Source: Anaerolineae bacterium (GTDB lineage: Bacteria > Chloroflexota > Anaerolineae > Aggregatilineales > Phototrophicaceae). Taken from it: a stretch of DNA of 64,000 nt. The DNA is taken from positions 62,001 through 126,000 of the forward strand of contig JAJEFB010000048.1 of assembly GCA_022820665.1 (NCBI GenBank), in the 5' to 3' direction. Position numbers and translations under genes: made by a program. Below the pieces are notes generated by a model that was not told the origin of the DNA, searched no databases, and saw nothing but the letters and a program-made list of their open reading frames with translations. Of this stretch, positions 21,225 through 39,307 are shown piece after piece; within the stretch, counting starts at the first letter, position 1, and each line of letters opens with the position of its first letter.

Positions 21225-23543
21225 TCATCCCTTAATTTGCATCTTCTGCCAATAATCACGGTAGGCGCGGGTCTCGCGCAGGATCATATCCAAGCGCTTT
21301 TGCAGCCTTTCCAGGTCGTCGCTTGGCGGGTCGTCGCGTCCCGTCAGGTGATATTCGCCCGTCTGCCCCACTCGATAGGCGAGTTTACCGAGCGAACGCA
21401 GCACTTGCAAGCCAACTTGCACGCAGCGTTCGCGCTGTCCCATGGCTGCCGCCAGCGCCTCAATTTGCGCCGCGCCATTCTTGTGGTTCAAGGCGTACTT
21501 GACCAAGGCAGCCAATCGTGCCAGGAATCTCGCCCGGCTATCAACATTGGGGCGGTTGCCAAACAAGATCAGGCGAGTTGGATTCACTGTCGCAAGCGCG
21601 GCCGACCATATTTCCGCAGACGGGGGCGCAGTCCAGACGATCAAGGTTTCCTTCGACCCCAGTCGCAGGCGATCGATCGCGCTCGCGATCTCTTCGACTT
21701 CCGACCAGATCAGCGCATCGGGAAAACGCGCCAACTCAACTTCAAGCTGCTCGGCGGTCGCCATTGACCGACGATGATCAATGAGCTCAAGGGCACGCGC
21801 TTCTTCATGCAATTGTGGCGCAGCGGTCGAGATCAGCCGGTAGTCACCCCATTCGACCAGCGGTTCGCGCAGCCCCTTGTAGTCGTTCGCGCGCAGCGTA
21901 TAAGCCAGGTCGAAGCGCCCCGCCGGCAGATCTTGACCGGCGCCGCGCCACCAGATAACCCGCTGTTGTATCCCCTTGCTGTCTTCAACATGCAGCTCCA
22001 GATGTTCGCCGCGACGCCCCAAACCGGACTGTTTGACCAATTTCAGATCGCGCGTCGCCAGGGTCAGCGGCGGATTGCCGTTGCCGAAGGGCGCCAGGCG
22101 CTCGAAGTCCCGCGTCAGATCCAGCGAAATCTCGCCCAGTTCGAGATAGCCGTCTATGTTCAGGCGCGGTCGCGGCGGACGCCCCCCGACAATCGCGCGC
22201 ACGATCCCCGAGAGGGCGCGACGGAACACGAAGACTTTGTCCGCCGGCAGACTCAAGCCCGCTGCCATACTGTGCCCGCCATAACGGGACAAAAGCGGCG
22301 CCAGCTCTCCAAAAGCAGCGGTGATATCGACGCCGGCAAGGGAACGCGCAGAGCCGCGGGCGGTCTCGTCGGGCGCCGCGAGCAGAACCACCGGACGCGC
22401 GAACTCCTCAACCAGTCTGCTGGCGACAATGCCGATCACGCCGCTGTGCCAATCGCTGTGGCTGAGCACGAGCGCGGCATAATCGAGCAGTGAGGGGTCA
22501 TTTTCGATTTGCGCGATCGCCGATTGATAGACCTGATGCGAGAGGAATTTGCGCTTGGCGTTGAGACCTTCCAGGTTATTCGCCAGTTGACGCGCGCGCT
22601 GCCAATCAACGGTGGTGAGCAGTTCGACCGCCGGATTAGCATCGCCCAGCCGTCCCAGGGCATTCAAGCGGGGCGCCAGTGCGAAGCCGATATGCCCCTC
22701 GTTGAGCTCCGCCGGGGCGATTTGGGCGCGTTCCAGCAGGGCGCGTAGGCCCAGCCGCTGATTCCGCCGCAAGATATCCAAGCCGCGCTGCAGCAAATAA
22801 CGCGTATCATCCACTTGCACCATGACATCGGCAACGATGCCCAGAGCCACCAGATCCAGCAAGAAATCACAGTCGTCGCCACCGTACAGCGCCTCGATCA
22901 ACTTGTAAGCGATACCGACCCCGGGCAATTCGATCAGCGGGTGCCCGGCCGGCAAGCGGCGCGGATTGACCACCGCGCAAGCCCCGGGCAGGTCGGCCGG
23001 CAGCGCATGATGATCGGTGATGATCGTATCCACACTGCGGCTACGCGCGTAGTCCACCGTTTCGTGAGCTGCCACGCCGGTATCGCAGGTCAGAAGGAGA
23101 TTGACGCCCCCGTCCAGTTTTTTGGCGAGCGTAGGCAGATGGATGCCGTGGCCTTCGCTAAAGCGATTCGGCACATGATAGCTCACCTGGGCGCCCTTCC
23201 GCTTCAAGGCGGAGACAAGCAGGGCCGTCGACGTCTGTCCGTCAACATCAAAGTCGCCCCAAACGAGAATCCTTTCGCGCTCGCGAATGGCGCGCTCCAG
23301 GCGATCGAGAGCCCGGTCAATATCGGGCAGGTCGCTCGCCGACGTCGGTTGATAATGGGCAGGCGACAGAAAGCACCGCGCCGCGGCGGGGGTCGTGATG
23401 CCCATGCGCGTCAGGCGCTGGGCGATCAAGGGATGCCCGCCGACAGCGTCGCGCAAGGCTGCGGGCGCGTCTAGCGCGCGGGGTTCCTCCCATTGGCGCG
23501 CGCTGGCTCGGTTTTGAGATTGCAGTGTTTGACCGATTGTCAT
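21225..23543 (-). CDS. recJ: Single-stranded-DNA-specific exonuclease RecJ
   Basis: 772-residue DHH-family 5'-3' exonuclease acting in recombination and mismatch or base-excision repair. Visible motifs: VWGDFDVDGQTSTALLVSAL (motif I, D-F-D-V-D), LLTCDTGVAAHETV, IITDHHALPADLPGACAVVNPRR (the DHH motif), GVGIAYKLIEAL, and the DHHA1 region ending YGGHSMAAGLSLP. It is longer than E. coli RecJ; the C-terminal ~200 residues form an extension of the kind seen in other long RecJ proteins such as that of B. subtilis. It starts 85 nt after the stop of the enolase-superfamily gene. Confidence 0.95.
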   Translation of the reverse strand: MTIGQTLQSQNRASARQWEEPRALDAPAALRDAVGGHPLIAQRLTRMGITTPAAARCFLSPAHYQPTSASDLPDIDRALDRLERAIRERERILVWGDFDVDGQTSTALLVSALKRKGAQVSYHVPNRFSEGHGIHLPTLAKKLDGGVNLLLTCDTGVAAHETVDYARSRSVDTIITDHHALPADLPGACAVVNPRRLPAGHPLIELPGVGIAYKLIEALYGGDDCDFLLDLVALGIVADVMVQVDDTRYLLQRGLDILRRNQRLGLRALLERAQIAPAELNEGHIGFALAPRLNALGRLGDANPAVELLTTVDWQRARQLANNLEGLNAKRKFLSHQVYQSAIAQIENDPSLLDYAALVLSHSDWHSGVIGIVASRLVEEFARPVVLLAAPDETARGSARSLAGVDITAAFGELAPLLSRYGGHSMAAGLSLPADKVFVFRRALSGIVRAIVGGRPPRPRLNIDGYLELGEISLDLTRDFERLAPFGNGNPPLTLATRDLKLVKQSGLGRRGEHLELHVEDSKGIQQRVIWWRGAGQDLPAGRFDLAYTLRANDYKGLREPLVEWGDYRLISTAAPQLHEEARALELIDHRRSMATAEQLEVELARFPDALIWSEVEEIASAIDRLRLGSKETLIVWTAPPSAEIWSAALATVNPTRLILFGNRPNVDSRARFLARLAALVKYALNHKNGAAQIEALAAAMGQRERCVQVGLQVLRSLGKLAYRVGQTGEYHLTGRDDPPSDDLERLQKRLDMILRETRAYRDYWQKMQIKG

Positions 23544-23627: not shown

Positions 23628-24827
23628 TCAATCAGCCAGTACCCGCTCCTCAACCAGGGTGAGCCCGTCTTCCGCCAGGTCCATGTTCATGCCCGGCGCG
23701 CTGGGCAACTCGATATAGCCGTCGACCGGCGTCAGTTTGTGCTTGTAGAAGACATTGCTGTGCCGACCGGCCTGGAAGAGCCATTCTTGCAGGGGGCAGG
23801 TAGTCAGCGTCTGCGAAGCGATCAGATGGGTCGAGGTCCAGCCGCCATGGTGGGGGATGACGGGAATGTCATGCGCCGAGGCCAGCGCGCAAATCTTGGT
23901 CATTTCGGTCAAGCCGCCAGCCCAGGTGACATCCGGTTGCAGCACGTGTACGGCCTCGGCGTCTAGCAAAGCCTTGATGCCCCAGCGCGTATATTCGTGT
24001 TCGCCGCCGGAGATGAAGACGCCGCGTACCGAGCGCCGCAATTCAGCGTACTGCGGAATCTTGTCCGCCAGGACCGGTTCTTCAAACCAGTAGGGTCGAT
24101 ATTCCGCCGCCAGATCGACCATGCGCAGGGTATAGGGCACATCCCAACTGCTCCAGGCATCGAACATGAGGTCAACATCGGGACCGGCCGCTTCGCGCGC
24201 GGCGCGGATGATAGCGAGGTTTCTGCGGATGCCCGCTTCGCCGTCTTTGGGCATGCCAGGCAGGAACCACTTGAAGGCGGTGAATCCCTGCGCCAGGAAA
24301 TGCCGCGTGCGCTCGATGACTTTCAGCGGCTCTACCGAATAGCCAAGCATGGAGGCGTAGGCGCGGATTTTCTGGCGCGAGGGACCGCCGAGCAGCACAT
24401 ACGCCGGCGCGTCGAGCAATTTGCCTTTGAGGTCCCAGAGGGCGAGATCGACCTTGCTGAGCGCCAGCATCGGCGTGCCCTTGCGGCCGTGTATAGAGAG
24501 GCGGTACATCTTGTCCCAGATGCGCTCGACGGCGTGCGGATTCTCGCCGATCAGCATCTCGGCGAAATAACGCTTGATGATGGCGATGTCTTCGTCGCCG
24601 ACGGGACCGCAGATGCCGGTCGCGCCTTCGTCGGTGTCAATGAGCAAGAAATGAGCATCCACCGGGTAGGGCGGTCCGCCGCTCATGTTCTCGATGGGCC
24701 AGCGCGGCTGCGCCGCTTCCAGTTCGGGATAGATGAAGCTGGGGCGCGCCAAGCCGGTTTCGCCCAGGGGTTCGTGGTAATCCCACTCGGCGCTGACGTG
24801 GATGGCGCGAACGCGGTCGATTTTCAT
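23628..24827 (-). CDS. Mandelate racemase/enolase-family dehydratase (rhamnonate-dehydratase-like)
   Basis: 399 residues. The N-terminal capping domain precedes the barrel. Metal ligands are in DLMFDAWSSWD, YWFEEPVLADK and SGGEHEYTRWGIKALL; the last closely resembles the GEHE-type segment of L-rhamnonate dehydratases. LQPDVTWAGGLTEMTKICALA and PVIPHHGGWTSTHL carry the usual Asp and His. The reaction is probably dehydration of a sugar acid to a 2-keto-3-deoxy acid, the kind of product the HpaI-type aldolase at 1.5-2.3 kb could split. AGGAG precedes the ATG. It lies 20 nt after the nuclease gene. Confidence 0.88.
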   Translation of the reverse strand: MKIDRVRAIHVSAEWDYHEPLGETGLARPSFIYPELEAAQPRWPIENMSGGPPYPVDAHFLLIDTDEGATGICGPVGDEDIAIIKRYFAEMLIGENPHAVERIWDKMYRLSIHGRKGTPMLALSKVDLALWDLKGKLLDAPAYVLLGGPSRQKIRAYASMLGYSVEPLKVIERTRHFLAQGFTAFKWFLPGMPKDGEAGIRRNLAIIRAAREAAGPDVDLMFDAWSSWDVPYTLRMVDLAAEYRPYWFEEPVLADKIPQYAELRRSVRGVFISGGEHEYTRWGIKALLDAEAVHVLQPDVTWAGGLTEMTKICALASAHDIPVIPHHGGWTSTHLIASQTLTTCPLQEWLFQAGRHSNVFYKHKLTPVDGYIELPSAPGMNMDLAEDGLTLVEERVLAD

Positions 24828-24847: not shown

Positions 24848-25666
24848 CTAAAATTCAATCTCGGCAATCTGATCAAAATCCAGCACAAAGTCTTCTTCTT
24901 CTAGTTCGTCGTCTTCATCGAGCAAATCAAGGGGACCCGCGCCGCCGCGTTCACAGAGTGATCGGTAGGTGCAGAAGCGGCAAAGGGATTCGTCTTCCGT
25001 CAGCGTGAATTGCTCGGCTCCTTCAATCTCGGCGATTAAATTGAGCAAGTAATCTTCGTCTTTCCGCAGTTGTTCGGCCGAATAGTCGATGCTGAGGCGC
25101 TCGCCTCCCCGCGCGACGAAGCAGTAGACCATGCGGATCTTCTCGGGCGGAATCTGAGCGCCGTAAAGATGCGCGCCGGCTTTTGCCAGCACGTAGCGAT
25201 AAAGAACCGTCTGCAGGCGGCTCTCCAAATAGCTCTGCGCGGGTACCCGGCGCCAGGTCTTCCAGTCGACGATGACCGCTTCCCCGCCGGCATCCAGCGC
25301 CAGCAGATCGTATTTAGCGGTCAGGCGGCGACCGGCTAGATACGTCTGCAAGGTGATCTCGGCCTGACGCTGCTCCGGCAGTCCCGCCAAGCCCGTCCTG
25401 CGGAAGGTCTCCCACCAGGTCGCCAGTTCCGGGTCATCATGCAGCGACCGCGCCAGCGTCTCAGCCGGCAAGCCCAAAAGATGCTGTTGCACCAGTTTAT
25501 GGAAGCGGGCGCCTTGCCGCGTGCGCCGCTCGAACTGGAGCGCGGGCGCGGCTTCCACAGCCGGGTAGCGCAGCCGCTTGATATAGCGCAGCTCAAAGCG
25601 GCGGAGGCAATCGGCGGCGTCTTGCAAGCTGCCTTGCGTGAAGGCGAAGTCATCGGGCAGGTTCAT
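24848..25666 (-). CDS. PD-(D/E)XK nuclease with Fe-S cluster (AddB-nuclease/Cas4-like)
   Basis: 272 residues. The nuclease core is YDLLALDAGGEAVIVDWKTW, followed by a conserved Gln/Tyr helix (RLQTVLYRYVLAKAG), the RecB-like QxxxY element. One Cys near residue 20 (AADCLRRFELRYIK) plus three in ESLCRFCTYRSLCERG form the pattern of a 4Fe-4S cluster, as in AddB and Cas4. The C-terminus is a very acidic tail (LLDEDDELEEEDF). It overlaps the upstream UvrD-like gene by 17 nt. It probably provides the nuclease function for the two helicase-like partners; no cas1 or cas2 is nearby. Confidence 0.85.
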   Translation of the reverse strand: MNLPDDFAFTQGSLQDAADCLRRFELRYIKRLRYPAVEAAPALQFERRTRQGARFHKLVQQHLLGLPAETLARSLHDDPELATWWETFRRTGLAGLPEQRQAEITLQTYLAGRRLTAKYDLLALDAGGEAVIVDWKTWRRVPAQSYLESRLQTVLYRYVLAKAGAHLYGAQIPPEKIRMVYCFVARGGERLSIDYSAEQLRKDEDYLLNLIAEIEGAEQFTLTEDESLCRFCTYRSLCERGGAGPLDLLDEDDELEEEDFVLDFDQIAEIEF

Positions 25667-27899
25667 GGCTCTCGCGCTTTCGCATTTCTCCTTCCCAGAA
25701 GGTTCGCAGCGCCAGCAAAGGCGTGGCTTCGGTGGCGTCGCCGCGGCCGGTATTCCAGGTGATGGTCAGCGCTTTGCGGGCGCGGGTGATGCCGACGTAG
25801 AGCAGCCGCAAGCGTTCGGCAGCGTATTCGACGCGGGCGTCGAGGCTGGCGAATCCCTCGTGATAAGCCTCGCCGCTCTGCAATGCCTCGAGCTGCGCCA
25901 GAGCTTCAGCCGACAGGTTGAGATCGTCGCGGATGTACCATTTTTCGCCGATGAAGGAATCGTTAGGCTCGGCGGAGGGAAAGTCGTAGTTGTTGACCGA
26001 GATGAGGTAGACGCGATCCCATTCCAGCCCCTTGGCTTTGTGCAAGGTGGTGACGGTCACCTTGCCCTTGTGGGCATCGGGATCGAATTGCCCTTCGTCA
26101 TCGCCCAAGCCGGTGAAGCGACGGCGATTGGCGGCGATATCGCGCAGTTCCGCGGCGAAATCCGGCAGGCGCATCTGGGGATGCGTCTCCCCCAGCCGCG
26201 CCAGGTAAAGCGCCACCATATGCGCCGTGGCGATATCGCCGACATCTCTAAAGACATCGCCGGAGACGGTCAGGATCAATTGATCGACGGGCAGCTCCGC
26301 CGCGCGCAGCCAGGCGCCTACGCGCTCTCGAAACTGAGTCAGCTGGGCGTAGAGTTCAGCGTGTTCATCCGCTGACAAGCTGTCCTCGAGCCAATCACTC
26401 AAACGCGGCGCGACATATTCTTCGACCGCGCTGATCCTGCCCAAGCCCCTCGTCACGCGCTCGATAGCTGCCGCGGCTTGGGCATCGTCCTGTTCGTCGC
26501 GGCGCGTCACTTGATAGACCTTCGCCAGCTTCTTGGCGTCTTTGGGATCGGCGAGATATTCCAGGATGAACGCCAGGCTGCCCACAACAGCGCGCGTTGA
26601 CGTGGTGGTGTTGAGGTTTTCCACGTAGGGCACGCGCTTTTCGCGCAGGAATTTGACAATTTCCGAACCGCGCGTATTGCGCGCCACCAGAATAGCGGCT
26701 GTCTGATCGGGATTACTTTCCAGCCAGCGCTTGCAAGATTCGGTGACGATCGTGGCTTCTTTTGTGGCGCTATAGGCTTCCGGGTACAAGACGACCCCAG
26801 CCGGATCATCGGGCGGGTTCGGCTGGGGATCGCCCGCCGGCGTCGGCTGAATAAAAGGCTGGCTCAGCGGGATGCGTTCGCGAATCGCGCCATGGGGATG
26901 TTTTAGCGACCAGGCGATCAGTTGGTTGGCCAGCTTTTGGATGCTGCGGGTGCTGCGCCCGGAATTGGGTAATTCGCGCCCGACGACCTTGTCTGAGGCG
27001 ATGAAAGCCCGCAGATATTTGGGATCGGCGGTGGTGAAGGTCTCGAAGATGGCTTGATTGGGGTCGCCGACCCGCAGCCAATTACCCTCGTCCCCCGCCA
27101 GCAAGCACAAAATGCGCTCCTGCAGCAGGCTGCTGTCTTGGGCTTCGTCTTCGAGAATGTAACGGTATTTTCGCCGCAGCGACTCCAGGTAGGCCGGGTC
27201 GCTTTGCAATACGCGCAGCGCCAGGCAAATCAAGTCCTGAAAATCCACCGCGCCACGGTAGCGCAAGGCGCGCTCGTAATCCGCATAGATCTCAGCGCAG
27301 ATCCGCGCCAAGCCCAGCTCGCCGCCCCGGTCTGCCTGGTCTGTCTGGCGCTGCATCAATTCTTCCGGCGAGAGCAGATCATCTTTAGCCCGCCGGATAA
27401 AGTCTCGCGCGGTATCCGTGAGGGTCTGTCCCCAGCGATAGAAGCGATAATGAGCGTTGTCCCGGTACTTGGGCGCAAGCCAGTCATCGGGCGCCTCGGG
27501 CGATCGCCCCATCCAGGATTCAATGGCGGCTGCCAGGATCTCGTTGCTCTCGCGTTCGTCCACGATGAGAAAAGCCTCGTCCAGCCCGGCAAGCGTCGGC
27601 TTCTGGCGAACGATGTCATTTGCCAGCCCGTGCAGCGTGCGTACGCGGTAACCGAACCCGGGCAACAGACCTTGGGATTTGACGTATTCGTTGATCTGTC
27701 GGGCGAAGTTGGAAACTGCCGAATTGACCAGGGTAACGATCAGGATTTCTTGTCCTTCTTCCAGATCGGTCTCCGTCAGCAGCCTTGCGGCCAGGTAGGA
27801 CAGCGTGGTTGTCTTGCCGCTGCCGGGCACCGCCGCCACGCCCAGGTAGCCCTGGCGATAAGCCAGCACCTCTCGTTGTTTGGGACGGGGCTTAAACAC
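25650..27899 (-). CDS. UvrD/AddA-like SF1 helicase without nuclease domain
   Basis: 749-residue DNA helicase with intact SF1A motifs: Walker A AVPGSGKTTTLSYLAARLL, motif II YILEDEAQDSS, motif III WLRVGDPNQAIFE, motif IV LPNSGRSTRSIQKLANQL, motif V VTVTTLHKAKGLEWDRVYL and motif VI LRLLYVGITRARKAL. It is shorter than AddA (about 1,200 aa) and ends at motif VI, so the usual C-terminal nuclease domain is absent. It overlaps both neighbours (8 nt upstream, 17 nt downstream). I infer that it is the motor of a three-subunit end-processing complex. Confidence 0.92.
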   Translation of the reverse strand: MFKPRPKQREVLAYRQGYLGVAAVPGSGKTTTLSYLAARLLTETDLEEGQEILIVTLVNSAVSNFARQINEYVKSQGLLPGFGYRVRTLHGLANDIVRQKPTLAGLDEAFLIVDERESNEILAAAIESWMGRSPEAPDDWLAPKYRDNAHYRFYRWGQTLTDTARDFIRRAKDDLLSPEELMQRQTDQADRGGELGLARICAEIYADYERALRYRGAVDFQDLICLALRVLQSDPAYLESLRRKYRYILEDEAQDSSLLQERILCLLAGDEGNWLRVGDPNQAIFETFTTADPKYLRAFIASDKVVGRELPNSGRSTRSIQKLANQLIAWSLKHPHGAIRERIPLSQPFIQPTPAGDPQPNPPDDPAGVVLYPEAYSATKEATIVTESCKRWLESNPDQTAAILVARNTRGSEIVKFLREKRVPYVENLNTTTSTRAVVGSLAFILEYLADPKDAKKLAKVYQVTRRDEQDDAQAAAAIERVTRGLGRISAVEEYVAPRLSDWLEDSLSADEHAELYAQLTQFRERVGAWLRAAELPVDQLILTVSGDVFRDVGDIATAHMVALYLARLGETHPQMRLPDFAAELRDIAANRRRFTGLGDDEGQFDPDAHKGKVTVTTLHKAKGLEWDRVYLISVNNYDFPSAEPNDSFIGEKWYIRDDLNLSAEALAQLEALQSGEAYHEGFASLDARVEYAAERLRLLYVGITRARKALTITWNTGRGDATEATPLLALRTFWEGEMRKRESHEPAR

Positions 27900-30186
27900 G
27901 CGCTTTCCCGTTTATATTATCCGCGGCGCTCCGCCGCAACAAGCCATGAATCGCCTCCAGGAGCAAGCCGCGCTGTTCGTAGCCGCTCTCGCTGAGCTCG
28001 CTGTAACCCAGGTAGATTTCTTTTCGGCAGCGCCGCGTCAGCGCCAGGATAAGCCGGCCCAGCGTCTGGCGGTTCATCGCGCTCTCGTCATCATCCGTCC
28101 AGGTTCTGCCCGCGGGCCAGCCCAAGCTCAATACATGAGGATGCGTCAAGGGCTGATACAAGCGGCGCGCCCAGCCTTCGCTGCCGACATTCAACCAGAA
28201 CTGATAATCAACCGCGCGGTTGCTCAATAAAAAGGTATAGGCGGGCGCGATCAAGACGCAGTCGTCATTATCCGCGATCCAATCGCGCAGGTAGAAATCG
28301 GCAATCACGCCGCGGTCCACCATTTCCAGGTAATCTTTGCCCAAGTCCGTACCCTCTTCATAGCGGCGCATGAACTCCAGCGACCAGCGAAAGTTGCGGG
28401 CGGAATCCACCAGGTTCATGCTGACATTGCCGGCATCGCGGTTGTCGTGAAAGCCGAATCCAGCGCGCGACAAGACCTCCCCGAACAACTGGCGAAAGAA
28501 AATATCAAGCGCCTCGGTCGGCGCGCCTTCAATGTAATTGTTCAGCCAGGTCTGCAGGCGGTCGTAACGAGCGCCCAGTTCGTAGGTGATGCGATCTTGC
28601 ATCGCTCCCGATTTGACATCGGAAAAGGGCAGCATTCGACCGTCCCGGTACAGCATCTCGGTCAAGAGCTTGGCGCGGATCAGGTCCAGACCGTCGATGG
28701 CTGTCATCACAGCGAATGCGACATCAAACTCGGCCGGCCTCATATGCCAGCGCGGGTGCGCCAGGCGAGCGAAGGTCAAGAGCGCGCGGGCGGCCGGTTC
28801 ATCGCGCAGAGCCCGCGACGGTCGGTGAGAGCGCGCTCTGATATCACGAGCCCGCAAGCCTTCGACCAGGGCAAAGCGCAGCACATCGGACATGAATGGC
28901 GCCATGACCACGATCTCGCCCGGCGATACGCCCTGACCATTGACGAGTTCGTCGATGCGACCGGCGGCCCAATCCACCATCTGTGGATGATAGCGATGCG
29001 CCTCCGTTATCAGCGAGGGCTGCGGATCGTCTTCGGCGCTCCCGCCTAGAGCGGCGACCAATTGACCCGCCAGCGCTCGTCCCAGGGCGCGACCTTCATC
29101 GGACATGACTTTGCTGTCGGCGAACTGTTCCCGAGCATCACAAAAGCCTTGCAGCCTACGCGCGTTTTCGGGGTCAGCGCCCAGGAAACGGCGAAAGCCA
29201 GCATCGCTGTCGTAGATGACCAGCGCCGACTGGCACAGTCGCAGCAGGTCCGCCAGAATACGGTGCGAGGCTGGATTGTCCTCTTCCACATTGTCCGCAA
29301 TCAGATGTCGGTATCGCATCCTGACATGCTCGCGCGCCTGCGGCAAGTTCCAAACGTGATCCAGGAAAACCTCCAGTTGCAAGGAGAAATCGAGCAAATT
29401 ATTAGCCAGACAATATTCGCGGAAAGCCAGCGCGCAGGTCTGCGCATCGTCGTAGATATGTCCCTGTTCAACGCCGCCGGGCAGCGCCCTCTTGAGCCGG
29501 GGCGCGATCTGGTCGATCGGGAAGCCCACTAGCGCCGCCTTGTTCATGTTGTCGACAATTTGACTATAGAGCCTGGCCCGGTCGATTCGCACGCTGTTGA
29601 AGTAGTCCCGCTGGTTGACCAGCGGCTCGATGATCTTGATCATAAAATACTGCACCGATTCCAGGCTGAGGAAGTTCGGCAGATCGTGGGGATGGCCGAA
29701 GCCGGCCCGCTCGGCAATCAAGAACCAGAAGGCTTCCACCATCTGCAGGGAGAGGCCCCCGATGGTCTGAACGGCGACCTGCCCGCCGCTGTATCCCGAA
29801 TGCCGGCGCAGCGCCTGAAGATAGGGCTGCGCCAGCGAGCGCTGCGGCACATAGATCAGGATCGATTCCGCCGGTATACCAAGCTCCAGCAGGCGCAGCA
29901 AGCGCCCGACGCCGGCGCTGGTTTTACCACTGCCGGCGATGCCTTCCAGCCAGATTTTCGTATCCGGCGGCGCCGCGGCGATGGCGGCTTGTTCCGGCGT
30001 CAATGGGATCTGCAATTTCCCGCTCAGGATTCGTTTTCCAATTTGCCTTTGTCGGTTACGACGATTATAAAACGCCGCCAGTTCAAAGGCGATAATCTGT
30101 TCCGCAATATGCGCCAACGCGGATGCCAGGCGAGACGAAGCGCGCGCATTTCCTAAGTAGTCGCAAGTGATTTCCGGGCGATCCAT
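27892..30186 (-). CDS. Divergent UvrD-like protein with degenerate Walker B (AddB-like)
   Basis: 764 residues. Walker A is WLEGIAGSGKTSAGVGRLL near residue 85. Motif II, normally D-E-x-x-D, reads LIADNVEEDNPA, so the catalytic Glu is replaced by Asn. Motif III-like LVIYDSDAGFRRFLGAD and motif IV-like LITEAHRYHPQMVDWA remain, as does a motif VI-like RLILALTRRCRKEIYLG. This resembles AddB, which keeps nucleotide binding but not helicase action; here the AddB nuclease domain is a separate gene. It is first in the three-gene overlapping operon. Confidence 0.82.
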   Translation of the reverse strand: MDRPEITCDYLGNARASSRLASALAHIAEQIIAFELAAFYNRRNRQRQIGKRILSGKLQIPLTPEQAAIAAAPPDTKIWLEGIAGSGKTSAGVGRLLRLLELGIPAESILIYVPQRSLAQPYLQALRRHSGYSGGQVAVQTIGGLSLQMVEAFWFLIAERAGFGHPHDLPNFLSLESVQYFMIKIIEPLVNQRDYFNSVRIDRARLYSQIVDNMNKAALVGFPIDQIAPRLKRALPGGVEQGHIYDDAQTCALAFREYCLANNLLDFSLQLEVFLDHVWNLPQAREHVRMRYRHLIADNVEEDNPASHRILADLLRLCQSALVIYDSDAGFRRFLGADPENARRLQGFCDAREQFADSKVMSDEGRALGRALAGQLVAALGGSAEDDPQPSLITEAHRYHPQMVDWAAGRIDELVNGQGVSPGEIVVMAPFMSDVLRFALVEGLRARDIRARSHRPSRALRDEPAARALLTFARLAHPRWHMRPAEFDVAFAVMTAIDGLDLIRAKLLTEMLYRDGRMLPFSDVKSGAMQDRITYELGARYDRLQTWLNNYIEGAPTEALDIFFRQLFGEVLSRAGFGFHDNRDAGNVSMNLVDSARNFRWSLEFMRRYEEGTDLGKDYLEMVDRGVIADFYLRDWIADNDDCVLIAPAYTFLLSNRAVDYQFWLNVGSEGWARRLYQPLTHPHVLSLGWPAGRTWTDDDESAMNRQTLGRLILALTRRCRKEIYLGYSELSESGYEQRGLLLEAIHGLLRRSAADNINGKARV

Positions 30187-34918: not shown

Positions 34919-35716
34919 ATGAAGATTATCACCCTACTCAATGAAAAGGGCGGGGTTGGCAAGACGACAGTCGCGACGCACATCGCCGCGGGCTTGGCGA
35001 TCCGCGGCAAGCGCGTGATATTGGTGGATGCGGACCCGCAGGGCCATGCCACCATCGCTTTTGGTCTGACCAAGGAACCCGGTTTTTATGACTTAATAGT
35101 TCGTAACGCCCCCTTCCAGCAGGTGTTGCGTCCGGTGCCGCCGGAACGGTTTAACTTGCCAGACGAAGCGCATAATACGCGTGGGCAGTTGTTGATGGTC
35201 CCGTCCAATATTGAAACGCGCAGCATTGCCGGCAACATCTCCGACGCCTTTACGGTATTGAAGCGCTTTAATCAATTGCGCAACGCCATCGATTTTGTGA
35301 TATTCGATACCTCGCCCACACCTTCGCTTCTGCATTCGTCTATTTACATGGCGACGGATGGCATCATCTATCCCACGAAATGCGAAGCCTGGAGCTTTGA
35401 CGGCTTGCGCGAGAGCTTAACGCATAAGGATCAGTTCAGCCCGATCCGTCAACAGTATAATCTGAACGACATCAAGGTCTTGGGTGTCGTGCCAACCATG
35501 TATCGCGGACGAACGCTGGAGCACCAGGACAACCTGCGCCGCCTGCAGGATATCTTTGGCGAACTGGTATGGAAGCCGCTGCCCGTTCGCACAATCTGGG
35601 CTGAAGTAGCCAGCGCGCGCCGCACGGTGTTCTCGCTAGCCCCGACTACAACCACAGCCGATGACGCCTGGTCGCTGGTTGACCAGTTGGAAGGACGCAT
35701 TTATGAGCAGTCGTGA
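34919..35716 (+). CDS. parA: ParA-family partition ATPase
   Basis: 265 residues. Deviant Walker A is LNEKGGVGKTTVATHIAAGLA, Walker A' is LVDADPQGHATIAFGL, and the Walker B region is FVIFDTSPTPSLLHSSIYMATDGIIYPTKCEAWSFDGL. This is the MinD/ParA superfamily, closest in layout to plasmid and chromosome partition ATPases. It has no N-terminal DNA-binding extension, so the separate winged-helix protein upstream may take that role. It overlaps parB by 14 nt. ParA moves ParB-bound DNA by dynamic, nucleoid-bound ATPase cycles. Confidence 0.9.
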   Translation: MKIITLLNEKGGVGKTTVATHIAAGLAIRGKRVILVDADPQGHATIAFGLTKEPGFYDLIVRNAPFQQVLRPVPPERFNLPDEAHNTRGQLLMVPSNIETRSIAGNISDAFTVLKRFNQLRNAIDFVIFDTSPTPSLLHSSIYMATDGIIYPTKCEAWSFDGLRESLTHKDQFSPIRQQYNLNDIKVLGVVPTMYRGRTLEHQDNLRRLQDIFGELVWKPLPVRTIWAEVASARRTVFSLAPTTTTADDAWSLVDQLEGRIYEQS

Positions 35717-36932
35717 ACGGCGCAGAAAAATTCAAGACGAAGAGAATCTTTTATACGCTAATCCCAACACGCTGGACCCCAAAACAGCTGACGCAATTGG
35801 TTTCGGTTTGGGCGAATTGGCAATGGAGATCGCCGCGGCCGACAGCGAGTATCAAGCTATAGAAGCCATTAACATCCAGGATATCCAGCCCAATGCCATG
35901 CAGCCGCGCCATAGCGTCCCCCACGACTTGACCGATATTTACCCGTTGACGCCGGACAACATAGTCGACATCTTCGAGCGCTGGATAATTGAAGTGCAAT
36001 TGGAGAAATCGCAGAACGACTTTGATGTCACAAACTACCTCTTGGGAGAGACGACAGAGCGAGGAGAACGCGCGGAAAAAGACGAGAGCGACGGCAGTTC
36101 TGGCATTGCTTTAGCCGCTTCCACAAAAGAAGACGCGTTGATGAAACTCGTCGATTTGGCTGCCAGTATCCGGCGCGACGGTTTGTCGAATCCTATCAGT
36201 CTCGTCCAGGATGGCGACCGCTACGAGATCGAGACTGGGGAGAGGCGCTGGCTGGCTTACCACATGCTCTATTGGAGGTTCGGCGACGGCGACGCGCGGC
36301 CGGATGGATCCCGGGTTAACTGGTCGCGCATACCAGCGCGCCTGGTGAACCGGGTGGATGTTTGGCGACAAGCGAGCGAGAACAACGCGCGTGATAATCT
36401 CAACGCGATCAGTCGAGCCCGACAGCTTGCCGTGCTCTTGATGGACCTGCACGGCTGGCAAAACTTCACCGCCTATAAAGAATGTGAGAACGAACAAGCA
36501 TTTTACGCCCAGGTCGCGGATGGCGCTCGTTGGCGGATACCCCGCGGTCAAGGCGAGCGCTTGCTAAACGCCATGGGGATGACAGAGGCCAGTCAACTGC
36601 GGCAATATCGGGCGCTGTTGCGCTTGCCGGAAGAGCTTTGGCGCAAGGGGGACGACGAGAACCTGAGCGAAGGCGAATTGCGCAAGATGAAATCCGCTCT
36701 GGCAACCGTTACACGTGTAACGAAATCCTCAGCCGGCAAGCGCAAGAAAGACGTCGTCGGCCGCCTGGCCGTCGACGCCGGACAATGGCGCAAGCGCCTG
36801 CGCAAAGAAATCTCCTCCACAACCGTCGATACACGACCCAAACTCCGCCGCCTCATCGAAGGCGAGATCCGCCAGCTGCTGCGCTTGATGACAGAACTCG
36901 ACGAATCCGAAGCCACGGTTCACTCCGCTTAA
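35703..36932 (+). CDS. parB: ParB-like partition protein
   Basis: 409 residues. The N-terminal ParB/Srx domain includes NPISLVQDGDRYEIETGERRWLAYHML with the GERR-type nucleotide-binding motif. SENNARDNLNAISRARQLAVLLMDL corresponds to the second conserved ParB box. A helical DNA-binding middle follows (RWRIPRGQGERLLNAMGMTEASQLRQYRALLRLPEELW). About 110 residues of acidic insert separate the start from the core, unlike chromosomal Spo0J-type ParB. I chose ATG 35703 (overlapping parA by 14 nt) over the track start inside parA. A parS-like site lies within the gene and another after it. Confidence 0.85.
   Translation: MSSRERRRKIQDEENLLYANPNTLDPKTADAIGFGLGELAMEIAAADSEYQAIEAINIQDIQPNAMQPRHSVPHDLTDIYPLTPDNIVDIFERWIIEVQLEKSQNDFDVTNYLLGETTERGERAEKDESDGSSGIALAASTKEDALMKLVDLAASIRRDGLSNPISLVQDGDRYEIETGERRWLAYHMLYWRFGDGDARPDGSRVNWSRIPARLVNRVDVWRQASENNARDNLNAISRARQLAVLLMDLHGWQNFTAYKECENEQAFYAQVADGARWRIPRGQGERLLNAMGMTEASQLRQYRALLRLPEELWRKGDDENLSEGELRKMKSALATVTRVTKSSAGKRKKDVVGRLAVDAGQWRKRLRKEISSTTVDTRPKLRRLIEGEIRQLLRLMTELDESEATVHSA
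36707..36722. promoter_or_regulatory. parS-like site 1 (inside parB)
   Basis: CGTTACACGTGTAACG is a perfect 16-bp palindrome. Its core GTTnCACGTGnAAC matches the classical parS consensus (TGTTTCACGTGAAACA) at all fixed inner positions. It lies in the 3' part of the parB-like gene, a common position for centromere sites of ParABS systems. Confidence 0.72.
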
Positions 36933-37282
36933 ACGCAACACGGAATCACACAGATTCTACAACTCATCTACTGCCAGAACCGCAGTGGTTGCTTTTCGGT
37001 TGAAATACTTTTAGCAGCTCCTCGACAGAAAGCCGCTTCCCCGAAATACGAGCGGCGTTGCTAGGGACAACTCGACGGGTCGCGTAGGTTGCGCAGACAC
37101 TACGCTTCGATACTGACCTGCGATCGCCTCTACTGCCAACCAGGCGGTTGTTGATCTTTATTTCAAGCAAATGAAGATACATTCGCCTTCAGGCTCCATG
37201 CAAAAAAAGTACCGTTACACATGTAACGGTACTCTCCGGCTTTTATGAGCCGTCAAAAAGCCTCAGGACAATCGTAAGTCAG
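36933..37282. other. Convergent intergenic region with parS-like site 2
   Basis: 350 nt between parB and the primase gene. Near 37078 it has a short degenerate match to repeats R1/R2 (GGGTCGCGTAG, then ACACT and TACTGACC). At 37209-37232 is the dyad GTACCGTTAC-ACAT-GTAACGGTAC, and CGGCT/AGCCG follows at 37238. No gene is supported here. Confidence 0.5.
37209..37232. promoter_or_regulatory. parS-like site 2
   Basis: GTACCGTTAC and GTAACGGTAC are perfect 10-bp arms around ACAT. The inner CGTTACACATGTAACG differs from site 1 by one base in the centre (CACATG instead of CACGTG). It lies between the convergent parB and primase-polymerase genes. It is probably a second ParB binding site with a weakened centre. 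Confidence 0.6.
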
Positions 37283-39307
37283 CTATCCCTCCGCAGCGCG
37301 CATGAGCAATTCCAAGGCGCGCGGGGCTTCTCCCAAACGCAACGCGCGTTTTGCAAAAGCATACAAGAGCTCGCCAGGATCCTCAAATGACGCCAAATAC
37401 ACATTTCCCTCGCCGAATTGCTTCAGCATTCGATACGCGATCCCGCGCTTAACGGGCCGCTCTACCGGCCGTCCATCAGGATCATAAGCCAGCAAGTACC
37501 CCCTGATCGTCTCTGCCACCTTGTCCGGCGCGATCTGCCTCGCAACCGATTCAAAGAACAAGGGAATCCGCTCCACTGCCGCGTCGCGCCCCCGCCGCTT
37601 TACAAAGTCAAAAAGCGCATTAATCGCGCTGTGTACGCGACTATTGGTACTTCCCGCATCACGAAGCGCTCGCGCCCTCACGAAACTCGCTACACTCATT
37701 TTCTCATATTCAACCCGGCTCTCCTCTCCAGACATGACATACCTCGATGGACGCCTCATACAAATCCTTGCATCCCCGTTCCCGGCTTTGAGCAACCACG
37801 ATCCAATATGCCGCCATGCCGGGAATCGCCGACCATCCGCTAATTCAATCCAGTATCCGTTGGTGGAATTCTTCATATCCTGGCGCCGGCGTTTCGGCAA
37901 GCTATCCAATACGCGCCGTGTGAGGGAGCAGGCGCCGACTTTCTCCACAACAGATACTCCCAGCGCTCGGTTGTAGCGCGCAATCGTCCGAGCATTTACA
38001 CCGATCCGCTTCGCCAACCAGCTTTTGGGAACTTCGGGAGACAGTCGCCGCAGGTATTCACGATGGAGCGCAAGACGATAGGAATGCGCAGACTTTATGT
38101 CCTCTACGCCGATGTTATCCGACGGAGACCAGGTCAATCCCAGTTGCCGCACAAGAGCGCTTATAGGAGGCACCTGGTACATGATCTGGCAGGGCCGGCC
38201 CCGCCGCCGCGATTTAAGTCCTCCATTGTCAAGGTATTCTACATATCTTCTTCGTATTATATATCGCCCATCGTACACAGACGCTTCTCCACCCAGCGCG
38301 TCGAGTACGCTTTTCCGATTCAGCCCAAAACCGGCAGCGGTGCCTATTGCTTCGCCCAGCGAAAACCATTCGCCTTCGCGCCACTTGGCCAAGCGAAACA
38401 CCTCAAGCAAACGAATCAACACCGTTGACCTCTGTTTCTGCAAAAGAAACTCTCGCAACGAATTCGGTATCCCAGATCCATACACAGAAATGCCATGGCC
38501 CTTCTTGAAGGCGCTCCCTATCGTACGCAAAGCCTCACTCAAGCGACTCTCCGGACTTTCGGCCCGCATTCCGTGCCTGTCGGCTTCCCATACATGTACC
38601 TGCCCGAGCAAAGCCACGACCTCGCTCTCGCCAAGCCCTTCATCCCGGGCGACTGACGCGCAGCGATAAAGCGCGTTGTTGCGTCCCATCTGTTTAGCCA
38701 GGCGCCTGTACAAAGGGAGGAGATCCGCTTTCTCTTGACTGTCGCCCCTCGGCGTGGCTACCCGATCCACCAAGGGTCCACTCTGCAGAAAATTCAGTAC
38801 CTCATCGAGCTCTTCATTCGACAGTTCCAAGGGAGAGATATCCTTTACCTCGCGATACCGGAAAGCGCCGATTTGCGACGGCGCCGCAATCACGTAGGAA
38901 CGTTCACCTTTGATATCCCCGCCGACGAACTGATGGCTCGGCAGTTTCCGCTCGGTACGAAAGTAGAGATGAAAGCCTCGATTCGTCTTAACAGTATAAG
39001 TGGCGATATGCTGCGGGAAACGGCGGCAGAACTTTCGATACCTCAAAAGATCGTCAAAGTCGATCACCAAAAGTCGCGATACGCTCCCACAGACGATACC
39101 CAAGGCTGTTACACCATCAGGAAACAGGGAGTCAATCTCCGCTGGTGAGGGGATGCGCTTTTGGAACTTCCGCCACTTGATCGCCGGCTTCTTCGGTTGC
39201 TCTGGCAGACTGTCCCCATGTACCGGGATGACAGAATATCCAGCCATTGCCAAATGTTTGGCTCTTTTTATCAGTCTTTTGCCTAAGGAAAACACCTTTT
39301 TTTCCAT
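37283..39307 (-). CDS. Bifunctional DNA primase/polymerase (PrimPol)
   Basis: 674 residues. The N-terminal archaeo-eukaryotic primase domain (about residues 15-200) shows AMAGYSVIPVHG, GIVCGSVSRLLVIDFDD (catalytic acidic motif), TYTVKTNRGFHLYFRT (the His motif) and GGDIKGERSYVIAAPSQIG. A middle region resembles the primase C-terminal part (NNALYRCASVARDEGLGESEV). KSWLAKRIGVNARTIARYNRALG looks like a helix-turn-helix. No helicase domain is fused. AAGGTG lies upstream of the ATG. Such proteins start replication of plasmids and phages; beside parAB it suggests an integrated replicon. Confidence 0.85.
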   Translation of the reverse strand: MEKKVFSLGKRLIKRAKHLAMAGYSVIPVHGDSLPEQPKKPAIKWRKFQKRIPSPAEIDSLFPDGVTALGIVCGSVSRLLVIDFDDLLRYRKFCRRFPQHIATYTVKTNRGFHLYFRTERKLPSHQFVGGDIKGERSYVIAAPSQIGAFRYREVKDISPLELSNEELDEVLNFLQSGPLVDRVATPRGDSQEKADLLPLYRRLAKQMGRNNALYRCASVARDEGLGESEVVALLGQVHVWEADRHGMRAESPESRLSEALRTIGSAFKKGHGISVYGSGIPNSLREFLLQKQRSTVLIRLLEVFRLAKWREGEWFSLGEAIGTAAGFGLNRKSVLDALGGEASVYDGRYIIRRRYVEYLDNGGLKSRRRGRPCQIMYQVPPISALVRQLGLTWSPSDNIGVEDIKSAHSYRLALHREYLRRLSPEVPKSWLAKRIGVNARTIARYNRALGVSVVEKVGACSLTRRVLDSLPKRRRQDMKNSTNGYWIELADGRRFPAWRHIGSWLLKAGNGDARICMRRPSRYVMSGEESRVEYEKMSVASFVRARALRDAGSTNSRVHSAINALFDFVKRRGRDAAVERIPLFFESVARQIAPDKVAETIRGYLLAYDPDGRPVERPVKRGIAYRMLKQFGEGNVYLASFEDPGELLYAFAKRALRLGEAPRALELLMRAAEG

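Follow-up and report, generated by a model that had tools for sequence, protein, structure and literature searches.

Known bacterial processors of DNA ends are RecBCD, AddAB and AdnAB. In mycobacterial AdnAB, the AdnA and AdnB subunits each carry an N-terminal motor and a fused C-terminal nuclease. In AddAB, one chain, AddA, joins a helicase to a RecB-type nuclease, and the other, AddB, joins a dead helicase to an Fe-S nuclease. Of the two nucleases, that of AddA cuts the 3'-terminated strand and that of AddB the 5'-terminated one; scanning for Chi is done by the inactivated helicase domain of AddB (PMC4824097). A UvrD-type helicase is also linked to a PF12705 nuclease in UvrD-Cas4 fusions and in UvrD plus Cas4-like operons (Hudaiberdiev et al. 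2017, PMC5704561); for the unfused operon of this kind in Clostridiales, a role in repair was proposed, and the fusions sit with restriction-modification genes (PMC5704561). In Synechococcus elongatus, loss of uvrD (a PcrA paralogue), recJcy (a RecJ paralogue) or a PD-(D/E)XK protein favours RSF1010 plasmids, as do losses of ago, cas4 and rpoD2, and these losses also favour natural transformation (PMC10653904).

The locus described here lies in a 4.56-Mb Anaerolineae genome (53 contigs, 95.7% complete), within a window, i.e. the whole 64,000-nucleotide stretch that was analysed, at G000:C10:62001-126000. It consists of three overlapping minus-strand genes, A, B and C, and a nearby recJ gene, recJ2 (Table 1). 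The three open reading frames had been noticed earlier in a sequence-only reading of the window, and both their coordinates and their overlaps (8 and 17 nt) were confirmed. That reading had also placed a RecJ gene two genes downstream; the position was right, but it was missed that this gene is a second RecJ paralogue belonging to the same module. A search of the open-access literature revealed no prior account of the A-B-C-RecJ2 gene set, the nearest being the Clostridiales UvrD plus Cas4-like operon (PMC5704561), and we provisionally regard the module as previously undescribed.

Table 1. Features of the module and its surroundings (window positions).
Feature	Position	Strand	Remarks
gene A	27892..30015	-	predicted inactivated UvrD-fold (SF1) protein, ~707 aa from TTG 30015; ORF open to ATG 30186
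A P-loop GIAGSGKT	29920..29943	-	GxGK[T/S] in nearly all orthologues
A DNVEE	29281..29295	-	in place of helicase motif II (DExQ); nearly always DNxEE in orthologues
A/B overlap, 8 nt	27892..27899	-	A stop and B start; same 8 nt at 16 loci, several genera
gene B	25650..27899	-	complete UvrD/AddA-type SF1A helicase, 749 aa, without nuclease domain
B/C overlap, 17 nt	25650..25666	-	
gene C	24848..25666	-	free-standing Fe-S PD-(D/E)XK nuclease, 272 aa, AddB-nuclease-like
C catalytic D120...D134-x-K136	25259..25309	-	invariant residues
C CxxC(x5)C	24953..24982	-	with C20, predicted 4Fe-4S ligands
mandelate racemase/enolase-like gene	23628..24827	-	between C and recJ2; genus-specific neighbour, outside module
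recJ2	21225..23543	-	long second RecJ, 772 aa, ~200 aa extra C-terminal region; fourth component

Like AddAB, the module has one SF1A motor with intact motifs (B), an apparently inactivated helicase domain (A) and an AddB-type Fe-S PD-(D/E)XK nuclease (C), with the partner genes side by side. Unlike AddAB, it has these domains on three polypeptides, includes a dedicated RecJ paralogue and shares the cell with a true AddAB. In contrast to AddA, B has no nuclease domain; in contrast to AddB, A has no nuclease, and C is encoded by a gene of its own at the loci read. AdnAB shares with the module UvrD-like motors and a nuclease, and AdnB is matched both by B and by the structure model of A, but the nuclease that is fused in AdnA and AdnB is free (C) in the module. 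In the UvrD-Cas4 systems, the helicase and the PF12705 nuclease are fused, whereas B and C are separate genes in the loci read, and neither an inactivated helicase partner nor a RecJ is mentioned (PMC5704561). C also differs from Cas4 in its surroundings: the window flanks gave no match to a PADLOC family and showed no CRISPR genes, and matches of C to Cas4 models were well below the cut-off. B matches the GajB models of Gabija, as a generic UvrD relative; a match to GajA (the OLD nuclease) is missing, and the neighbours of B are instead the PD-(D/E)XK nuclease C and A. The S. elongatus genes can be likened to the module by parts list alone (an extra UvrD, an extra RecJ and a PD-(D/E)XK protein with a common loss-of-function effect), and no counterpart of A is named among them (PMC10653904).

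Orthologues of A begin at the position of the TTG at codon 58 (30015), and because of this the true start is probably there, giving a protein of 707 aa. Only the UvrD N-terminal model scored above the cut-off with A (Pfam, E 2.9e-9). The degenerate motif II seen in the sequence-only reading was recovered as [DE][NG]xEE in 71 of 71 A orthologues. The glutamine of motif III is lost, GAD is mostly retained, and arginines near motif VI (R718, R719) are conserved. When the A profile was compared by hhalign with profiles of the same family's sets, near-equal scores were obtained for AddA (6e-11), AddB (3e-9) and B (1e-9); A is therefore not clearly closer to AddB than to AddA or B. As judged from these profiles, A is a diverged, putatively inactivated SF1 helicase, about equally related to AddB, AddA and B. 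The structure model of A is of moderate confidence (pLDDT 68, pTM 0.60; C-terminal part poor) and matches UvrD, AddB, AdnB and RecB at TM ~0.4, which supports the fold but not the placement. Because dN/dS is 0.14-0.19 and the motif is invariant, which rules out a decaying pseudogene, DNxEE is taken as a fixed specialisation of A rather than decay. A distant A-like protein is encoded by an Ilyobacter polytropus plasmid (L172:11983-13956); it is colinear with A at 20% identity, has DNLEN where A has DNxEE, and is adjoined by no B, C or RecJ gene.

B matches the N-terminal (6e-47) and C-terminal (2e-23) UvrD models of Pfam and retains all SF1A motifs (PGSGKT, DEAQD, GDPNQ, TRAR). It ends after the UvrD C-terminal domain and matches no nuclease among the Pfam models; the earlier description of an intact UvrD-like helicase lacking a nuclease domain thus holds. 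Alignment with the helicase part of AddA gave an hhalign E of 5e-39. C matches PDDEXK_1 along its length (Pfam, 1.6e-24), and C20, H56, E103, D120, D134, K136, Q152, Y156, C229, C232 and C238 are invariant. With four invariant cysteines, it is the free-standing Fe-S PD-(D/E)XK nuclease that had been proposed. The nuclease domain of AddB, including its Fe-S region, is matched by C over residues 4-241 with an hhalign E of 1.3e-10, and that of AddA with 6.6e-5. The profile links of the module proteins as a whole extend to AddA, AddB, AdnB and RecB. Matches of C to the PD-(D/E)XK structures 9iac/9iab were weak (E 1e-3 to 7e-3); 9iac or 9iab is named after an Anabaena protein, a possible link of C to the cyanobacterial gene set. 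When part of the Salinibacter C (see below) was compared with the PDB by phmmer, no match was found. Across A, B and C, dN/dS is 0.14-0.25, and the A-B-C order is maintained across families and into another phylum; because of these two observations we do not consider the arrangement a product of chance.

A RecJ of ~580 aa (RecJ1) is near-universal in genomes of the family, and carriers of the module add a long RecJ of ~760-790 aa, RecJ2. The window's RecJ2 has DHH, DHHA1 and RecJ_OB domains, supported by its orthologue on pSR56. RecJ2 is thus a second paralogue, beside a separate housekeeping RecJ, and is part of the module. Its structure model is poor (pLDDT 53.5), and only the region of ~670-760 is better; a winged-helix-like pattern may be discerned in this part of the C-terminal region (residues ~670-767). 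In the RecJ of Salinibacter plasmid pSR56, the region that matches the C-terminal region of RecJ2 gave a sub-threshold match to PaaX. RecJ2 is directly 3' of C in many genera, with gaps of -4 to 296 nt, and the mandelate-racemase-like gene found between them here is confined to the window's genus. Within this genus the locus is stable and adjoins parAB and an Opp-type transporter; in some members, a break separates A from B-C-RecJ2. Genes for ParA, ParB and a Prim-Pol protein are located at window positions 34919-39307, by the Opp-type transporter that adjoins the module, and their synteny is kept in the genus.

The sequence-only reading had proposed that AddA and AddB were redistributed into the three proteins, possibly as the host's double-strand-break end processor, and had held a complete AddAB elsewhere in the genome to speak against this. 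Such a pair was found on contig C18: an AddA of 1208 aa and an AddB of 1076 aa, both intact. We therefore conclude that the module is not a divided form of the host's AddAB, nor is it the host's sole end processor; what stood of the proposal is the domain correspondence revealed by hhalign. That the module is a split AddAB serving as the only AddAB-like double-strand-break enzyme is, as a sole enzyme, already refuted for this genome, and we consider it very improbable overall, despite the domain-by-domain match to the AddA helicase, the AddB helicase-like domain and the AddB nuclease. Within the family, AddB was present in 59/61 genomes, including 42/42 good ones. Across the class, AddB-sized PF12705 (PDDEXK_1) ORFs were observed in 12/48 carriers versus 4/13 non-carriers (P=0.73, shared ancestry ignored). 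AddB presence is thus unrelated to carriage, and the idea that a genome holds either AddB or the module was rejected. The same counts leave 36 of the 48 class carriers, including the single-contig genomes G371, G164 and G228, with no AddB-sized PDDEXK_1 ORF, and because of this the module may be the main enzyme of the AddAB kind in many class relatives, which speaks for the split-AddAB proposal there.

The presence of each component was recorded in 61 sampled genomes of the class. A and B were found in the identical 48 genomes and neither in the other 13; C was present in 44/48 of these carriers and RecJ2 in 36/48, versus 0/13 non-carriers in both cases (shared ancestry uncorrected in all these counts). 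RecJ1 was found nearly everywhere in the class. In the family, presence of A and B was concordant in 59/61 genomes and discordant in 2. C is absent from one lineage within f1 (G012, G030, G042, G045) and from part of f3, and RecJ2 from 12/48 class carriers; since some carriers are without C or without RecJ2, the minimal core consists of A and B, without a strict need for RecJ2. In three of the genomes that keep A and B and are missing C (G042, G045 and G030; loci L072, L073 and L078), the gene 3' of B looks IMPACT/YigZ-like by inspection. The co-occurrence persists when the genes are dispersed. The single-contig genomes G164 and G371, as well as G401, have A, B and C spread over two or three loci far from each other: in G401, they are at 2.22, 0.20 and 1.03 Mb, respectively, of one contig, and in G164, C is ~0.35 Mb from A and B. 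In G044, A is separated from B-C-RecJ2. The gene overlaps had been taken to imply a fixed stoichiometry; the overlaps are real, but they do not show obligate stoichiometry, because A, B and C occupy separate loci in several relatives.

In 339 sampled genomes from other classes of the phylum, A was not found (E<=1e-20). Among named relatives, the carriers of A are MAGs whose records read Chloroflexi/Chloroflexota or Anaerolineae, and a contig scan with patterns from one sequence returned close relatives only. Beyond Chloroflexota, the scans covered plasmids, phages and viral contigs. In Salinibacter ruber M8, A, B, C and recJ stand side by side in the same order on plasmid pSR56, with 41-44% identity; their annotations there are hypothetical protein, helicase, nuclease and RecJ. 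Ahead of the cassette lie two genes (L171:8059-9925), for an IrrE-like regulator of the HTH-M78 type and for a 202-aa protein, which suggests regulated expression; the 202-aa protein had no Pfam or PADLOC match. A DEAD/DEAH helicase of the same plasmid (L171:21452-24145) strongly matches DpdF and PsyrT models. A phage origin of the module was rejected: neither A nor C was found in phage records, nor A in viral contigs, where matches to B were generic UvrD below 35%.

Pairwise distances between the module proteins were strongly correlated (A-B, r=0.95; A-C, 0.94; B-C, 0.93; A-RecJ2, 0.92; C-RecJ2, 0.96); those of the housekeeping pair AddB-RecJ1 correlated at 0.76. Correlations of A with AddB and RecJ1 were 0.14 and 0.12, respectively. 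Correlations of B and C with AddB were moderate (0.44 and 0.51), and RecJ2 gave 0.69 with AddB and 0.67 with RecJ1, compared in 9 genomes only. In trees, G022 grouped with G042/G045 for A and B, and with G008 for AddB and RecJ1. By these distances, A, B, C and RecJ2 appear to have one common history that is different from that of AddB and RecJ1; it is clearest for A, because B, C and RecJ2 correlate partly with AddB (RecJ2 also with RecJ1). Inheritance, loss and transfer appear to affect the module as a whole. Because co-occurrence survives gene dispersal and distances correlate at 0.92-0.96, the four proteins very probably form one functional unit. An operon of convenience, in which repair-related genes with separate roles merely share a locus, would account for the separability of the genes in several genomes and for carriers that are missing C or RecJ2. 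It is highly improbable in view of the exact A-B co-occurrence in the class, which is kept when the genes are unlinked, the distance correlations and the presence of all four genes together on the Salinibacter plasmid.

The same patterns bear on what the unit does. As an accessory immune module, close to the anti-phage complex that the sequence-only reading had offered as an alternative, the four proteins could unwind foreign DNA (plasmid, phage or transforming DNA, incoming or stalled) and degrade it. The patchy, accessory distribution, with carriers alongside non-carriers in one genus (G034), would fit such a role, as would joint inheritance along a history that departs from that of housekeeping genes, the plasmid copy in another phylum downstream of a regulator that matches PADLOC RmrA models, and the S. 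elongatus losses that favour RSF1010 plasmids, where the similarity is one of parts list only (PMC10653904). Other observations point away from it. The module has no PADLOC match as a system, and a known defence system was rejected, since A, C and RecJ2 matched PADLOC models at most as generic relatives of UvrD and Cas4. In other genera, most of the genes that recur beside the module have housekeeping roles, the locus is fixed and under strong purifying selection within the window's genus, and redundant repair enzymes typically coexist, as the module does with AddAB. The link of C to 9iac/9iab is weak, and neither A nor C turned up among phages, nor A in viral contigs. We consider restriction of foreign DNA possible but rather unlikely, and slightly favour use of the module mainly in repair or recombination.

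The reading that best fits these data, and that we think probable, is a mobile, AddAB-like end-resection machine without an AddA-type 3'-strand nuclease. From the domain content, the function of the module is probably DNA-end processing (resection), parallel to and separate from AddAB and RecJ1. By analogy with AddB/AddA, A and B would form a heterodimer, in which B as the motor would draw the 3' strand through, and A would hold or scan this strand, a task that the dead helicase domain performs in AddB and RecC. The 5' strand would be removed by C, which corresponds to the AddB nuclease, together with RecJ2 acting as a 5'-3' exonuclease. Because the module has no counterpart of the AddA nuclease, the 3'-strand cutter, the default product would be a resected end with a 3' overhang, and both strands would not be destroyed. 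Action on the 5' strand only is a tentative part of this scheme, somewhat more doubtful than not.

A more specific formulation is evenly balanced in our judgement: a previously undescribed, horizontally transferred machine of four proteins that spreads the AddAB domains over three of them, has a dedicated RecJ paralogue in place of the 3'-strand nuclease, includes A as a pseudo-helicase with its P-loop retained and a DNxEE signature, and acts either in constitutive 5'-strand resection or as a foreign-DNA restriction engine. If this is true, the module would be a new architecture beside RecBCD, AddAB and AdnAB, in which motor, dead-helicase partner, nuclease and exonuclease are separable, and the role of each domain would be testable through single-gene omission. 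The module may also supply a biochemical basis for the effect of the cyanobacterial uvrD, recJ-paralogue and nuclease genes on foreign DNA. More generally, it would mean that end-processing machines can travel on plasmids and coexist with AddAB.
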